A stretch of 64,000 nt of DNA from Allosalinactinospora lopnorensis (GTDB taxonomy: Bacteria > Actinomycetota > Actinomycetes > Streptosporangiales > Streptosporangiaceae), in assembly GCF_000981225.1 (NCBI RefSeq), contig NZ_LAJC01000001.1, positions 62,001 to 126,000 of the forward strand. Reading direction: 5' to 3'. This document shows, piece after piece, positions 52,832 through 59,886 of the stretch. The position numbers and the translations under genes are program-made. Within the stretch, counting starts at the first letter, position 1, and every line of letters begins with the position of its first letter. The notes under the pieces were generated by a model that saw nothing but the letters and a program-made list of their open reading frames with translations, was not told the origin of the DNA and searched no databases.

Positions 52832-52911
52832 TCATAGCCCACGGAACGAAAAAGCTTTCCTATGCTCTTACACGCGCGTGGAGAACGTCTATTCGACCAG
52901 GATTGGTTCCC

Positions 52912-53580
52912 ATGGGACAGGAATACACCAATGGGACGGAAGAGGTCCCGACCGCCCGACCCGTCCTCACCCGCTCCACTCCCCTATGGATCGTAGCCGT
53001 ACTCATCGTGGTCGCCCTGGGGGCGGGCTATCTGCTGGGGCGCCCCACCGTCCCGCTGGACAACAGCGCCGAGGCCGGTTTCCTGCGGGACATGAGCGCG
53101 CACCACTCGCAGGCGGTGGACATGTCGCTGATCATCCTGGAGAAGACGGACGAGCCGCGGCTCTCCGCGGTCGCCGCGGACATCACGCGCACCCAGCAGG
53201 CCCAGATCGGGCGGATGCAGGGGTGGCTGGCCCGGTGGGAGCTCGGCGCCCGCGGCCCGGAACCGCCGATGACCTGGATGGAGGGGCACGGGGGCCACGG
53301 GGGCGGCGAGGTCCCCGAGACGATGCCGGGGTGGGTCTCCGACGAGACCATGGCCGAGCTGCGGGACGCCGAGGACCGCGAGGCCGAGATCATCTTCCTT
53401 GAGGCGATGGTGGGGCACCACGTAGGCGGCATCGATATGGCCGAGGCCGCGGCGGTGCTGGCGGAGGAGCCGAAAGTCGTTCGCCTGGCGTCGGGCATGG
53501 CGGAGGCGCAGCAGAGTGAGATCGAGCTGATGCAGGACATGCTGGAGGAGCGCGGCGCCGACCCGGTCGAGATCGACTGA
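52912..53580 (+). CDS. DUF305 membrane-anchored protein
   Basis: 222-aa protein. One N-terminal TM helix (PLWIVAVLIVVALGAGYLLG) precedes two ferritin-like DUF305 repeats, each with a Met/His core: FLRDMSAHHSQAVDMSLI and FLEAMVGHHVGGIDMAEA. A Gly/His stretch (GHGGHGGG) lies between. Such Met/His pairs suit copper binding (inference). ATG at 52912; a TTG at 52903 is possible. Upstream of cydA but separated by its operator region. Confidence 0.87.
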   Translation: MGQEYTNGTEEVPTARPVLTRSTPLWIVAVLIVVALGAGYLLGRPTVPLDNSAEAGFLRDMSAHHSQAVDMSLIILEKTDEPRLSAVAADITRTQQAQIGRMQGWLARWELGARGPEPPMTWMEGHGGHGGGEVPETMPGWVSDETMAELRDAEDREAEIIFLEAMVGHHVGGIDMAEAAAVLAEEPKVVRLASGMAEAQQSEIELMQDMLEERGADPVEID

Positions 53581-53662
53581 CGCCCTCCCTCCGCCATCGC
53601 GGCGGATGCCCGCATCCCCTGCCGCGCCGGTGATGTACGCCTCTCCTGCCCCGCTCGACTTA

Positions 53663-53705
53663 CTACACGCTGTAGAACTACAGTTTGTAGTACTACGCGT
53701 TGTCG
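53663..53705 (+). promoter_or_regulatory. Three tandem 15-bp palindromic operator units before cydA
   Basis: The unit CTACA-nnn-TGTAG-nn begins at 53663, 53678 and 53693, exactly 15 bp apart. The first two are perfect 5+3+5 inverted repeats; the third is degenerate (CTACG-CGT-TGTCG). The array ends 20 bp before the cydA ATG. It does not match the Rex box known for Streptomyces cyd genes. The regulator is unidentified. Confidence 0.65.
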
Positions 53706-53724
53706 GGCGGCTGGAGAGGCGAGC

Positions 53725-55164
53725 ATGGAGGCACTGGACCTCGCACGGTGGCAGTTCGGGATCACGACCGTCTACCACTTCCTGTTCGTGCCGCTGACGA
53801 TCGGCCTTTCGCTCATCGTCGCCGCCTTCCAGACCGCCTGGTACCGGACCGGCAGGCACGAGTACCTGCAGGCGACCAAGTTCTTCGGGAAGCTCTTCCT
53901 GATCAACTTCGCCATGGGAGTGGTCACCGGGATCGTGCAGGAGTTCCAGTTCGGCATGAACTGGAGCGAGTACTCGACGTTCGTGGGCGACGTGTTCGGC
54001 GCACCGCTGGCCATGGAGGCGCTGCTGGCGTTCTTCCTGGAGTCCACGTTCATCGGACTGTGGATCTTCGGCTGGGACCGGCTGCCCCGGAAGGTGCACC
54101 TCGGGTGCATCTGGGCGGTCGCGGTCGGCAGCAACCTCTCCGCCTACTTCATCCTCGCCGCGAACGCCTGGATGCGGCACCCGGTCGGCTACCAGGTCAA
54201 CGAGACCACCGGGCGCGCCGAACTCACGAGCATCTGGGCGGTGCTCAGCAACGCCCAGGCCTGGTCGACCTACCTGCACGTGCTCAGCGCGTCCTTCATC
54301 ACCGCCGGGCTGTTCGTGGCCGCGGTGAGCGCCTTCAAGCTGTGGCGGGGCAGGACGGCGGGGCAGGAGGGCCCCCTGCCCAACGGGGAGCACGAACTGT
54401 TCCGCAAGACGCTGCGGGCCGGCCTGATCGTCACCCTGATCGCCGGCGTCCTCGTCGTCTTCTCCGGCGACCACCAGGCCAAGCTGGCCGCGCAGTACGA
54501 GCCGATGAAGCTCGCCGGCGCCGAGGCGCTGTGGAACACCGAGGACGCGGCGGAGTTCTCGATGTTCGCGGTCGGCGACACCGAGGCCCGGGAGAACGTC
54601 GTCGACCTGAACATCCCCTACGTGCTGAGCTTCCTGGCGACCGGGGAGTTCGGCGGGACCGTCGAGGGCATCAACGACCTCCAGGCACAGTACGAGGAGG
54701 CCTACGGCCCCGGGGACTACACCCCCAACATCTTCGCCTTGTACTGGTCGTTCCGGCTGATGATCGGGCTCGGGCTGGCCGGTGTCGCGGTGGCGGTCCT
54801 CGGGCTGTGGCTGACACGCCGGAAGCGGCTCCCCGAGACCCGCTGGTTCTACTACGCCACGATGCTGGCGCTCCCCTCGGCGCTGCTCGCCAACATCCTC
54901 GGCTGGTTCCTGACCGAGATGGGCCGCCAGCCCTGGACGGTGCACGGGGTACTGCTCACCGCGGAGAGCGTCTCGCCCGGGGTGAGCCTCGCCGAGGTGG
55001 CGTTCACCCTCAGCCTGTTCACAGCGATCTACGGAGCACTGGCCGTCGTCGAGGGATGGTTGCTGTGGCGCTACGTCAAGGCAGGCCCCTCGCACGTGGT
55101 CCCCGCCAAGGAGGACGACGGCGAGGACGGCAGCGACAGTCCTGTTCCGGCGTTCGTCTACTAG
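53725..55164 (+). CDS. cydA: Cytochrome bd oxidase subunit I
   Basis: 479-aa quinol oxidase subunit carrying hemes b558, b595 and d. H18 in FGITTVYHFLF is a heme ligand; further ligands are in WSTYLHVLSASF and the Met/Glu-rich GWFLTEMGRQPW motif. The length marks the short-Q-loop type. ATG at 53725 with GGAGAGG upstream. First gene of cydABDC; it gives high-affinity, proton-motive respiration under low oxygen or stress. Confidence 0.96.
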   Translation: MEALDLARWQFGITTVYHFLFVPLTIGLSLIVAAFQTAWYRTGRHEYLQATKFFGKLFLINFAMGVVTGIVQEFQFGMNWSEYSTFVGDVFGAPLAMEALLAFFLESTFIGLWIFGWDRLPRKVHLGCIWAVAVGSNLSAYFILAANAWMRHPVGYQVNETTGRAELTSIWAVLSNAQAWSTYLHVLSASFITAGLFVAAVSAFKLWRGRTAGQEGPLPNGEHELFRKTLRAGLIVTLIAGVLVVFSGDHQAKLAAQYEPMKLAGAEALWNTEDAAEFSMFAVGDTEARENVVDLNIPYVLSFLATGEFGGTVEGINDLQAQYEEAYGPGDYTPNIFALYWSFRLMIGLGLAGVAVAVLGLWLTRRKRLPETRWFYYATMLALPSALLANILGWFLTEMGRQPWTVHGVLLTAESVSPGVSLAEVAFTLSLFTAIYGALAVVEGWLLWRYVKAGPSHVVPAKEDDGEDGSDSPVPAFVY

Positions 55165-55176
55165 GAGCCGACCACC

Positions 55177-56223
55177 ATGGATCTCGTACTCATCTGGTTC
55201 CTCGCCATCGCGGTGCTGTGGACCGGCTACTTCGTCCTCGAAGGCTTCGACTTCGGCGTCGGGATGCTGCTTCCGGTGATCGGCAGGGACGACACCGACC
55301 GGCGCGTCATGATCAACTCGATCGGGCCGGTCTGGGATGGTAACGAGGTGTGGGTGATCACCGCGGTCGGCGCGACGTTCGCCGCGTTCCCCGCCTGGTA
55401 CGCCTCCATGCTCAGCGGTTTCTACCTGCCCGTGTTCCTCATCCTGCTGGCGCTGATCGTGCGCGGGCTGGCCTTCGAGTACCGCGGCAAGGGCGACACC
55501 GACCGCTGGCGCTCCTGGTGGGACCGGGCCATCTTCTACGGCAGCGCGATCCCCGCCCTGCTGTGGGGCGTCATCTTCGCCAACCTGGTGCGCGGGCTGG
55601 CCATGGACGCCGACCACATCGTCACCGCCAGCCTGTTCGACCTGTTCACCCCGTACGCCATGCTGGGCGGGGTGATGACACTGTCCCTGTTCGCCCTGCA
55701 CGGCGCGGTGTTCCTCACCTTGAAGACCGGGGGCGAGGTCCGGGCCCGCGCCCGCGCCTCGGTCGCCGCCACGGCCGCCGTCGCGATCCCCACCACCGTG
55801 GTGTTCCTGGTGTGGACGCAGGCCGCGCACGGGGCGCCGTGGACGGCGCCGATCGTGGCCATCGCCGCCCTCGGGCTGGTCGCCGGCGTCGTGCTCGCGG
55901 CGAAGCGCCGGGAGGGCTGGTCCTTCGCCGCCACGGCGGTCACCGTCGGCGCGGTCTCCACCACCCTGTTCGGGTCGCTGTTCCCCGACGTGCTGCCGTC
56001 GACGACGGACCCCGCCCACAGCCTGACGATCCGCAACGCCGCGTCCGCCCCGTATACGCTCACCGTCATGACGTGGCTGGCGGTGGTCTTCCTCCCGCTC
56101 GTCCTCGGTTACCAGGCCTGGAGCTACTGGGTGTTCCGCAGGCGCGTCACCCGGGAGCACATCGAGCCGACTCCCTCCTACGGCGGCGGCGCCGAGGCCG
56201 GCCCGCCGCCGAGCGTCCACTAG
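55177..56223 (+). CDS. cydB: Cytochrome bd oxidase subunit II
   Basis: 348-aa membrane subunit with about 9 TM helices. The N-terminus (LIWFLAIAVLWTGYFVLEGFDFGVGMLLP) and NGPVWDGNEVW-like SIGPVWDGNEVWVI are conserved CydB blocks. ATG at 55177, 12 bp after cydA. Confidence 0.95.
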   Translation: MDLVLIWFLAIAVLWTGYFVLEGFDFGVGMLLPVIGRDDTDRRVMINSIGPVWDGNEVWVITAVGATFAAFPAWYASMLSGFYLPVFLILLALIVRGLAFEYRGKGDTDRWRSWWDRAIFYGSAIPALLWGVIFANLVRGLAMDADHIVTASLFDLFTPYAMLGGVMTLSLFALHGAVFLTLKTGGEVRARARASVAATAAVAIPTTVVFLVWTQAAHGAPWTAPIVAIAALGLVAGVVLAAKRREGWSFAATAVTVGAVSTTLFGSLFPDVLPSTTDPAHSLTIRNAASAPYTLTVMTWLAVVFLPLVLGYQAWSYWVFRRRVTREHIEPTPSYGGGAEAGPPPSVH

Positions 56224-56252: not shown

Positions 56253-58103
56253 ATGAAGCCCCTTGATCCGCGACTGGTGCGCACCGCACAGGCGGTACGG
56301 GTACATCTGGTCGTCACGGTGCTCAGCGGCGTGGCGATCACCGTCCTCGTGCTCGCGCAAGCCTGGCTGCTGGCGCACGTCATCGCCGGGGCCACCCGCG
56401 GGATGGGATTGGACGAACTGTCGTGGGCGATCACGGCCGTCGCCGGGGTCGCGATCGCCCGGGGGGTGCTCGCCTACGGGGCCGAGACAGCGGCCCTGCG
56501 CTCCGCGGCACGGGCGAAATCCCAGCTCCGCCGCAGGCTGCTCGCCCATGTGACGGGCACTCGGGCGGCCGAGGAGGAAGGTCTCCCGGAGAGTCCGGGA
56601 CGCGGAGCGGTCTGGTTGTCAGGGCAGACCGGCTCCGATCAGGGGACGGGCACCCCGCGCGCCGGTGAACTGGTCACTCTCGCCACACGTGGCCTGGACG
56701 CGCTGGATGACTACTTCGCCCGGTATCTCCCGCAGCTGGTGCTGGCGGTGCTCGTCCCCATCTCGGTACTCGTCGTCGTCACCAGGGCCGACTGGATCTC
56801 GGGGATCATAATCGCGGTGACGCTGCCGCTGATCCCGATCTTCATGGCACTGGTCGGCCGGCACACCCAGGCCCGCACGCAGCGCCAGTGGCGGCTGCTC
56901 AACCGCCTCGGCGGGCACTTCCTCGACGTGGTCGAGGGGCTGCCCACCCTCGCGGTCTTCCGCCGCGCCAAGGCCCAGGCGGCCATCATCCGCCGGATCA
57001 CCGACGAGCACCGGCGCACCACCATGTCGACGCTGCGTATCGCGTTCCTCTCGGCGTTCGTCCTGGAGCTGCTCGCCACCCTCGCGGTGGCGCTGGTCGC
57101 GGTGGAGATCGGCATCCGGCTGATGTACGGGATACTGGACTACGAGACCGCGCTGCTGGTGCTGATCCTGGCCCCCGAGGCCTACCTGCCGCTGCGGGAG
57201 GTGGGCGCCCGCTTCCACGCCAGCATGGAAGGGGTCGCGGTGGCGGAGCAGGTGTTCCGCGTCCTCGATGAGCGGGCCGAGGAGGCGCGCGCCCGCCCCG
57301 GGGAACGCGGCGAGGACCCGACCACTCCGGTACCGATCGGCGCCCACAGGGCGCCGCGGATCCGCCTGGACGGCGTGGGACTCGTCTACCCGGACCGCGA
57401 GGCCCCGGCGCTGCGCGACGCGGCACTGCTCGTCGAACCGGGGCGGAGCCTGCTGCTCACCGGACCCAGCGGATCCGGCAAGAGCTCGATACTGTCGCTG
57501 CTGCTGCGGTTCACCGAACCCACCTCCGGGCGGATCCTGGTCCAGGAGATCCCGGAACCGGCGGCCGGCGGCACCACTGAAGCGGGCGGGGAAGGCCCGC
57601 CGGAGGGCCCGACCGGCGCGGACGGGTGGGTGCCGCTCTCGGCGATCCCGCCCGACGAATGGCGGCGCCGGATCGCCTGGGTGCCGCAGCACCCCTACCT
57701 CTTCGACGACAGCGTCGCCGGCAACATCCGGTTGGGGGATCCGGAGGCGAGCCTCGAAGCCGTCCGGCGCGCCGCCGCGCGGGCGGAGGCCGACGCGTTC
57801 ATCCGCGCACTCCCCGAGAGCTACGACACCCGCATCGGCGAGCGCGGGACCCGGCTCTCGGCCGGGCAGCGCCAGCGGATCGCACTGGCCCGCGCGTTCC
57901 TGCGCGATGCGCCGATCGTGCTGCTCGACGAGCCGACGGCCCACCTGGACCCGGAGAACGCCGCGGCGATCCGGACCGCCGCCGCACGGCTGGTGCGGGG
58001 GCGCACCGGCATCATCGTCGCGCACGACACCGGATGGGCCGACCTCGCGGACGAGGTCGTGCGGGTCGAGGCCGGCCGGACCACAACGGAGGTGCCTTCA
58101 TGA
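56253..58103 (+). CDS. cydD: Thiol reductant ABC exporter subunit CydD
   Basis: 616-aa half-exporter that with CydC moves glutathione/cysteine-type thiols needed for bd assembly. Six TM helices, then Walker A GPSGSGKSS, signature LSAGQRQRIALARAF and Walker B IVLLDEPTAHLDPE. ATG at 56253 opens KPLDPRLVRTAQAV; GTG at 56223, overlapping the cydB stop, is an alternative. It overlaps cydC as ATGA. Confidence 0.93.
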   Translation: MKPLDPRLVRTAQAVRVHLVVTVLSGVAITVLVLAQAWLLAHVIAGATRGMGLDELSWAITAVAGVAIARGVLAYGAETAALRSAARAKSQLRRRLLAHVTGTRAAEEEGLPESPGRGAVWLSGQTGSDQGTGTPRAGELVTLATRGLDALDDYFARYLPQLVLAVLVPISVLVVVTRADWISGIIIAVTLPLIPIFMALVGRHTQARTQRQWRLLNRLGGHFLDVVEGLPTLAVFRRAKAQAAIIRRITDEHRRTTMSTLRIAFLSAFVLELLATLAVALVAVEIGIRLMYGILDYETALLVLILAPEAYLPLREVGARFHASMEGVAVAEQVFRVLDERAEEARARPGERGEDPTTPVPIGAHRAPRIRLDGVGLVYPDREAPALRDAALLVEPGRSLLLTGPSGSGKSSILSLLLRFTEPTSGRILVQEIPEPAAGGTTEAGGEGPPEGPTGADGWVPLSAIPPDEWRRRIAWVPQHPYLFDDSVAGNIRLGDPEASLEAVRRAAARAEADAFIRALPESYDTRIGERGTRLSAGQRQRIALARAFLRDAPIVLLDEPTAHLDPENAAAIRTAAARLVRGRTGIIVAHDTGWADLADEVVRVEAGRTTTEVPS

Positions 58104-59886
58104 CCCGGGCGCCCGCCACGCCCTCGCCGGCCCCTGCCGACCCCGCGGGGCGCGCACGCGATCCGCTCCGGCGCATGATCGCGCTGGCGTGGCCGCGCGG
58201 TACGCGCTTCGCCCTGGGGGTCCTCCTCGGTGCCGCCGCGACCGGTTCCGGGGTCGCGCTGCTGGCGGTGGCCGCGTGGCTGCTGGCCAAGGCCGCCGAG
58301 CACCCGCCATCACGGCGCTGAGCATCGCTGTGGTGGCCACCCGCGCCCTGGGGATCTCCCGCGGCGTCGCCCGCTACCTGGAGCGGCTGGTGACGCACGA
58401 CGCCGCGTTCCGCACGCTGGCCGATGTCCGGGTCCGCGTCTACGAGCGGCTGGCGCGCACGGAACCTGTTCGCAAATTCCGTTCCGGTGACCTGGTCTCC
58501 CGGCTGGTCAGCGACACCGACGCCACGCAGGACCTGCTCATCCGGGGGTTGACCCCGCCGCTGGCCGCGCTGCTGACCGGCGGAGCCGCGGTCGCGTTCT
58601 GCACCTTGCTGTTCCTTCCGGGCGGGCTGGTGCTGGGGGCCGGACTGCTGCTCGCGGGCCTGGCCGTCCCCTTCGCGGCGGCCGTGCTCGGCAGGGGGCC
58701 CGGCCGGCGCCAGGCCGCGGTCCGCGGCGAGCTCGCCACGTCGCTGGTGGACACCCTCTACGGCGCTCCCGACCTGGTCGCCTACGGCGCCATGGACCGC
58801 GCCGTGCGGCGAGTCGAGCAGGCCGACGACGAACTGACCCGCGTCGCCCAGCGCGACGCGACGCTGCTCGGGTTCGGCGCCGGAGCGACCACCCTGATCA
58901 CCGGCGTGACCGTGTGGGCGGCGCTGCTGCTGGGAGTGGCCGCGGTCGAGGGCGGCGCGCTCGGCGCGATCTCCCTCGCGGTGCTCGTGCTGACCACACT
59001 CGCCGCCTTCGAGATCGTGGCGCCCCTCCCCGCGGTGGCGGCGCGCCTGGGCTCGCTGCGCGCGAGCGGCGAGCGGCTGTTCGACGTGCTGGACACACCG
59101 CCGATGACCGCACCGCCGACCGAGCCGGGACCGCTGGAGCCGGACGGCACCGGGCTGCGCGTGCGCTCGCTGCGGGTCCGCTACGGCCCGGACGAGCCAC
59201 GGGCGCTGGACGGCGTGGACATCGACGTTGCCCCGAGCCGGACCGTCGCCGTGTTGGGGCCCAGCGGCGCCGGGAAGAGCACGCTCGCCTCCGTGCTGCT
59301 GCGTTTCCGCGACCCCGAGTCCGGAACGGTCGAGCTCGGCGGCACCCACATCGCCGCGTACCCGGCGGACGAGGCGCGGCGGTTCATCACCGGTGTTCCG
59401 CAGGACCCGCACATCTTCACCAGCACGCTCCGGGAGAACCTGCGGCTCGCCGCCCCGTCCTGTTCCGACGAGGACCTCTGGGAGGCGCTGCGGCGCGCCC
59501 GGCTGGACCACGAGGTGGCGGCGATGCCCGCGGGTCTGGACACGGAGGTGGGCGCGCACGGCATGCGGCTGAGCGGCGGCATGCGGCAGCGCCTCGCGCT
59601 GGCCCGCGCACTGCTCGCCGCACCCCGGATCCTGGTGCTGGACGAACCGACGGCCCACCTCGATCCGGACACCCGCGACGAGGTGATCACCGACCTGCTC
59701 GCGGCCGCCGAGGGGTACTCCACGCTGCTGATCACGCACGACCTGACCGGGCTGGAGCAGGTGGACGAAATCCACGTGCTCTCCGAAGGCCGGATCCTGC
59801 AACGGGGAACCCACGCCGACCTGCTCGCCCAGGACGGCTGGTACCGCGACGCCGCGGTGCGGGGGTCGTGGGATTCCGGGGCGTGA
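58100..59886 (+). CDS. cydC: Thiol reductant ABC exporter subunit CydC, frame broken by one missing base
   Basis: Second half of the exporter. The opening (MTRAPATPSPA...VALLAVAAWLLAKAAEHP) stops in frame at 58321; the continuation, one frame over, begins ITALSIAVVATRALGISRGVARYLERL and runs to 59886 with Walker A GPSGAGKST, signature LSGGMRQRLALARAL and Walker B ILVLDEPTAHLDPD. One C is missing at 58306-58308; restoring it gives 595 aa. ATG at 58100 has GGAGGTGCC upstream and overlaps cydD. Sequence error likely. Confidence 0.86.

Follow-up and report, generated by a model that had tools for sequence, protein, structure and literature searches.

The BlaI family is best known for its control of penicillin-resistance genes. 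In Mycobacterium tuberculosis, BlaI is reported to bind the promoters of cytochrome bd and ATP synthase, and its mycobacterial partner reportedly has no beta-lactam sensor domain (PMC5473688, citing Sala 2009). In addition, BlaI is described as a repressor of Rv1303, which is co-transcribed with the ATP synthase genes (PMC12565901), and sigC and atpH are named as members of its regulon (PMC8265638). BlaI control of cyd is already stated for M. tuberculosis (PMC5473688), and a Clostridium BlaI is known that uses a five-base spacer and operators in pairs (PMC8457756). In Streptomyces the cyd genes are controlled by Rex (PMC5355995). In the part of the accessible literature that was surveyed, we found no account of a conserved set of ctaA, ctaB, resA-type and Rieske targets, nor of a split between lineages with BlaI-type and Rex-type cyd promoters.

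In this study, we analyzed a 64,000-nucleotide stretch of Allosalinactinospora lopnorensis DNA (the window) in which cydA is preceded by an array of short palindromes. The sites, their conservation, their occurrence before both blaI and cydA, and the recurrence of particular target genes lead us, with high confidence, to read the array as a tandem operator for a BlaI/MecI-family repressor that would be encoded elsewhere in the genome together with a metalloprotease partner, and that would control respiration genes. All four cyd genes are on the plus strand: cydA (53725..55164, cytochrome bd subunit I, Pfam PF01654), cydB (55177..56223, subunit II, PF02322), cydD (56253..58103, an ABC exporter half named from operon order only, with an ATG start read off the sequence) and a frame containing cydC (57268..59886, over the cut-off of NCBIfam TIGR02868), whose true start probably lies further downstream because the CydC profile matches residues 344–826. 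Upstream of cydA are a DUF305 gene (52903-53580, plus strand), with the array between it and cydA, and a DUF3105 gene (minus strand). The DUF305 protein scores 82.9 against the CopM copper chaperone profile, just under the cut-off of 90. The closest named matches to CydA, among the best 80 of at least 594 relatives, are from Nocardiopsis and Actinorugispora.

The sequence from position 53660 reads TTACTACACGCTGTAGAACTACAGTTTGTAGTACTACGCGTTGTCGGG and contains three candidate operator sites, none assigned to a strand, which we compared with the unit TACTAC-N5-GTAGTA. Sites 1 (53661..53677, TACTACACGCTGTAGAA) and 2 (53676..53692, AACTACAGTTTGTAGTA) each have one mismatch to this unit, and site 3 (53691..53707, TACTACGCGTTGTCGGG) is degenerate with three; each site begins 15 bp beyond the one before. 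The original prediction of three palindromes phased at 15 bp was correct as to the period, which is exactly 15, and as to two of its members, since CTACA-N3-TGTAG is exact at 53663-53675 and 53678-53690; the third (53693-53705) has two mismatches, with a right half of TTGTCG. Such a degenerate third site was seen again in the cydA arrays of several close relatives, and the GTCGT half site is also used at ctaA. The array adjoins the cydA start, as had been noted, with 19 bases between its last core base (53705) and the ATG at 53725.

The array exceeds chance. Allowing at most two mismatches, CTACA-N3-TGTAG has 14 matches in the window versus 5.1 expected (maximum of 11 in 100 shuffles), and TACTAC-N5-GTAGTA with at most three mismatches has seven versus 1.9 expected (maximum of five in 100 shuffles). 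Four of these seven fall in the cydA array, two of them as overlapping registers. The tandem CTACN5GTAG-N2-CTACN5GTAG occurs 1, 2, 2 and 3 times in the window at up to 0, 1, 2 and 3 mismatches, with means of 0, 0, 0 and 0.05 in 40 dinucleotide shuffles of the window. A motif search of the whole A. lopnorensis genome, which had been proposed as a check, returned only three tandem matches with at most one mismatch, of which two are registers of the cydA array and the third is a site before the blaI gene on contig C56. Searches allowing one to three mismatches were not counted as evidence because their backward-read controls were high, and shuffles and exact matches were used instead; weak matches with at most three mismatches were no commoner in this genome than the control (50 versus 146), and such a search was positive in 97 of 120 genomes of the window's GTDB family, most genomes also having control matches. 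By eye, no respiratory gene was recognized adjoining the one-mismatch sites at C36:5320 and C12:54474 of the same genome.

Comparison with the cydA upstream regions of relatives, also suggested at the outset, gave tandem 15-bp sites in 21 of 29 loci and in none of 50 shuffles; cydA matches were present in 48 of 60 related genomes, from which 30 loci were taken, 29 with readable upstream DNA (L114 was excluded). In two genomes (G015 and G031) whose first cydA locus shows no tandem, a second cydA has an array. Within the family, 71 of 120 genomes contain the exact double unit with 15-bp spacing, versus 2 of 120 for the backward control. In a class-wide sample it was found in 25 of 41 family genomes versus 1 of 353 others, with controls of 1 and 5, respectively; the sole exact tandem outside the family (G486) was set aside, being below the control there (5/353). 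Derivation of the conserved unit from the 150–250 bp before cydA in relatives showed that CTACA-N3-TGTAG, as originally proposed, matches here, but that the constant part across relatives is TACTAC-N5-GTAGTA, in which the five inner bases vary and A5, C6, T13 and G15 are invariant in 64 sites.

A broader set comprised 80 named actinomycete cydA loci, the best 80 of at least 594 confirmed relatives, in which only non-overlapping sites with at most two mismatches were considered for counts and spacings. At least two sites were found upstream of cydA in 28 of the 80 loci and in none of 50 shuffles, in agreement with the earlier reading of the repeats as a regulatory array of cydABDC. The positive loci are from Nocardiopsis (4/4), Actinorugispora (1/1), Pseudonocardia (5/7), Nonomuraea (6/7), Actinomadura (2/4), Microbispora (1/2), Micromonospora (4/4), Kribbella (4/4) and Leifsonia (1/1). 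No BlaI-type site was found before cydA in 46 of the 80, including all 28 Streptomyces loci. Five loci without BlaI- or Rex-type sites (L039, L042, L044, L049 and L070) have an exact GGACCNNGGTCC palindrome at most 250 bp upstream of cydA, which resembles a DosR-type box; possibly, these loci represent a third kind of cyd control. Nocardiopsis, Actinorugispora and Microbispora have their sites 15 bp apart; the spacing is 15 and in some cases 18 bp in Nonomuraea, 15, 19 and 34 bp in Actinomadura, 18–19 bp in Pseudonocardia, 19 bp in Micromonospora, 33 bp (once 23) in Kribbella and 24 bp in Leifsonia, and is 18 bp in L027 and L033. Strict 15-bp phasing was therefore rejected as a general rule, and the earlier proposal that successive dimers sit on alternate DNA faces is fair as arithmetic for 15 bp, but the spacings of 18–19, 24 or 33 bp in other genera mean that a fixed helical phase is no general requirement.

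The A. lopnorensis genome has five BlaI-type (PF03965) genes. Two of them are divergent and ~1.4 kb apart (C32:47263-49305), with a site-like ACTACGATTATGTAGT (ACTAC-N6-GTAGT) between them. The gene preceded by the tandem site is blaI (C56:20311-20670, minus strand), which is outside the window and encodes P0001, a protein of 120 aa that scores 94.4 bits versus a PF03965 cut-off of 22.6; its sites have two mismatches each and the tandem ends 7 bp from the ATG. The best PDB match to P0001 is 2g9w (E 1.3e-30), labeled as a 'conserved hypothetical protein', which we take to be M. tuberculosis BlaI (Rv1846c). Three of the BlaI paralogues match 2g9w at 8e-16 to 9e-14, and the fourth does not at E ≤ 0.001. 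BlaI matches were present in 50 of 60 related genomes, and among the 30 best, taken one per genome and 60–100% identical, tandem 15-bp sites precede the blaI start in 20 (for example L284; L299 is without), compared to none in 50 shuffles. Five genomes (G001, G038, G039, G042 and G058; L305-L309) were chosen because their blaI and cydA matches were adjacent, and in each of them blaI and a cydA-type gene point away from one another and have their sites in common. Allowing at most two mismatches, the gap contains two sites in G001, whose partner gene encodes a distantly related bd-type subunit I (32% identity to CydA), and three in the other four, those of G042 reading TTCTAC-N5-GTAGAA. In addition, one array lies between blaI and a divergently oriented gene for a second type of bd subunit I in L220, L246 and L250, and single sites precede both cydA and blaI in G043. 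A BlaI-like gene is present in G016 and G052, in which no site was found at cydA, and in G011, G032, G056 and G045, in which no site was detectable at blaI or cydA.

In all 34 distinct loci (35 were searched, G001 twice), blaI has a metalloprotease gene downstream of it in the same orientation, counting a 38-residue piece at a contig end (L291). In A. lopnorensis it begins about 4 bp past the blaI stop codon and encodes a protein of 313 aa with an HEHAH motif, above the Pfam cut-off for M48 and below that for M56. These were its only matches in the profile search, which showed no beta-lactam sensor domain of the classical BlaR1 kind. Based on these sequence comparisons, a BlaI-type repressor very probably binds the repeats before cydA, and P0001 is likely to be the regulator of the array. 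This differs from the original prediction, which had set BlaI and CopY aside over their 2-bp spacing; a BlaI-family gene has the same sites, which it shares with a cydA-type gene in five genomes, and inverted repeats five nucleotides apart are also used by C. thermocellum BlaI (PMC8457756).

Other regulators of the array were considered. Since the genome has five BlaI-family genes, another paralogue could bind it, and one or several of the other four might do so in place of the C56 protein, as their winged helices are related and could recognize similar half sites. That reading seems unlikely to us, as a scan of 3.3 kb at each of the five BlaI loci (L001-L005) found ACTACA-N3-TGTAGT with at most three mismatches at C56 only, including two sites 15 bp apart, and it is the orthologues of the C56 protein that are divergent from cydA-type genes elsewhere. 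The prediction that the regulator is not Rex agrees with our results. A Rex-type redox repressor acting on cydA here would follow the precedent of Streptomyces, where cyd is under Rex (PMC5355995), but the Rex-type box GTGAA-N3-8-TTCAC precedes cydA in 27 of 28 Streptomyces loci versus 0 of 52 others, no BlaI-type site was found in those 28, the two site types do not occur together in any of the 80 loci, and the A. lopnorensis cydA upstream region has no TGTGAACNNNTTCACA-type Rex operator. Control by Rex is contradicted by the sequence and hardly credible.

A CopY-type repressor sensing copper or another metal would tie the copper-free bd oxidase to the copper supply and to the neighboring DUF305 gene, whose product comes close to the CopM cut-off (82.9 versus 90). 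The older CopY consensus TACANNTGTA resembles CTACANNNTGTAG (PMC7253601), the putative targets include synthesis of haem A for the copper oxidase, and copper deprivation induces cydA in M. tuberculosis lacking the chalkophore and, after longer deprivation, in the wild type (PMC12140626). However, that induction may arise indirectly from a failing oxidase, the spacer here is one base longer (TACA and TGTA are 3 apart versus 2 in TACANNTGTA), and P0001 scores only 43 versus a CopY cut-off of 122 and has no cysteine, and therefore no Cys-X-Cys metal site. The link to the DUF305 and DUF3105 genes that had been envisaged also found no support, as in the window no site with at most three mismatches was found at these genes besides the cydA array itself. 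We consider a CopY-type repressor very improbable. A copper-starvation regulon, prompted by a WhiB-like gene (L018/L195) and a CopC-like frame, was rejected based on the same lack of a DUF305/DUF3105 site and the cysteine-free regulator.

Further putative targets of the BlaI-type repressor were sought in 60 stretches (L194-L253) fetched around perfect, tandem or other good sites, eight of which had no site passing a stricter filter and two more (L194 and L243) no called gene. As the stretches were picked for their sites, counts of neighboring genes show recurrence, not frequency. The genes beside sites, recognized mostly by eye, encode a Tat-type Rieske protein (six genomes), a membrane protein of 111–114 aa (nine genomes) and another of ~120 aa (four genomes), a succinate dehydrogenase-type cytochrome b at 159 bp (two genomes), FAD-dependent oxidoreductases, a thioredoxin-like protein, and WhiB-like and acetyltransferase pairs, along with blaI and bd-type oxidase genes; no beta-lactamase was recognized by eye among the frames of the 60 stretches. 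The own-genome copies confirmed with Pfam/NCBIfam were Rieske, WhiB, COX15-CtaA, heme o synthase and an AhpC-TSA/thioredoxin-type ResA-like protein, with a DsbD_TM (CcdA-like) gene downstream of the latter, and the own-genome copies of the two small membrane proteins had no Pfam family. A perfect site lies 2–11 bp before the start of the 111–114 aa protein in nine genomes, at loci picked for perfect sites (C60:7819-7835 in A. lopnorensis, L196; also L201, L204, L206, L207, L209, L211, L251 and L252), and this protein may be a respiratory assembly factor. Tandem sites also precede a Pfam WhiB-family gene at C27:121-152 (L018, L195), with a CopC-like frame seen by eye farther downstream, and in other genomes such sites separate divergently oriented WhiB-like and acetyltransferase genes.

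A site with at most two mismatches was found upstream of ctaA in 18/18, ctaB in 15/18 and the resA-like gene in 18/18 family genomes, compared to shuffle means of 0.02, 0 and 0.04, respectively, counts that are not independent since these genomes were chosen as relatives. The ctaB and resA-like sites have two mismatches each. The ctaB site is 184–316 bp upstream of the conserved portion of the protein; in A. lopnorensis it falls in the interval that separates ctaB from a divergent transketolase-like frame, and could therefore act on either of the two.

Most probably, winged-helix dimers of the BlaI/MecI family would fill the adjacent TACTAC-N5-GTAGTA units near the cydA and blaI starts and block transcription, which would hold both cydABDC and blaI itself low. 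The partner protease would probably remove BlaI when respiration is disturbed, and loss of BlaI would turn on cytochrome bd together with the genes for haem O/A synthesis and cytochrome c maturation. The repressor role and its relief by cleavage are modeled on what is described for S. aureus and mycobacteria (PMC9834060, PMC5473688).

More tentatively, and with slightly less than even confidence, we suggest that actinomycetes possess a conserved respiratory-stress system, made up of a beta-lactam-blind BlaI and its protease, which adjusts cytochrome bd jointly with haem O/A synthesis and cytochrome c maturation, and that this system and Rex have traded places at cyd as actinomycetes evolved. 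If so, the role of BlaI in penicillin resistance would be a derived use. Our results also name a candidate regulator of cytochrome bd outside the Rex lineage, with a clear operator, would put a beta-lactam-resistance family at the center of respiratory gene control, and make the signal detected by a BlaR-like protease without a sensor domain an approachable question in harmless actinomycetes.

Among the described systems, M. tuberculosis BlaI (Rv1846c) resembles the present one in being the closest solved structure (2g9w, presumably this protein), in its BlaI-protease gene pair and in its cyd promoter target. It appears to differ in that here there are tandem 15-bp operators and conserved ctaA, ctaB, resA-like and Rieske sites. 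The Rex system of Streptomyces has the same target operon, cydABCD, and other energy genes (PMC5355995), and acts through another DNA site. CopR-CopY belongs to a homologous repressor family with TACA/TGTA half sites, but has a two-base spacer and a Cys-X-Cys metal motif, neither of which is present here (PMC7253601). For Clostridium thermocellum BlaI_0696, the inverted repeats are likewise separated by five nucleotides, each target has two ordered pairs, and there is autoregulation; however, its half site is GTCTAT versus TACTAC here, and its reported targets are the blaI/blaR1 operon and hypothetical genes rather than those of respiration (PMC8457756).
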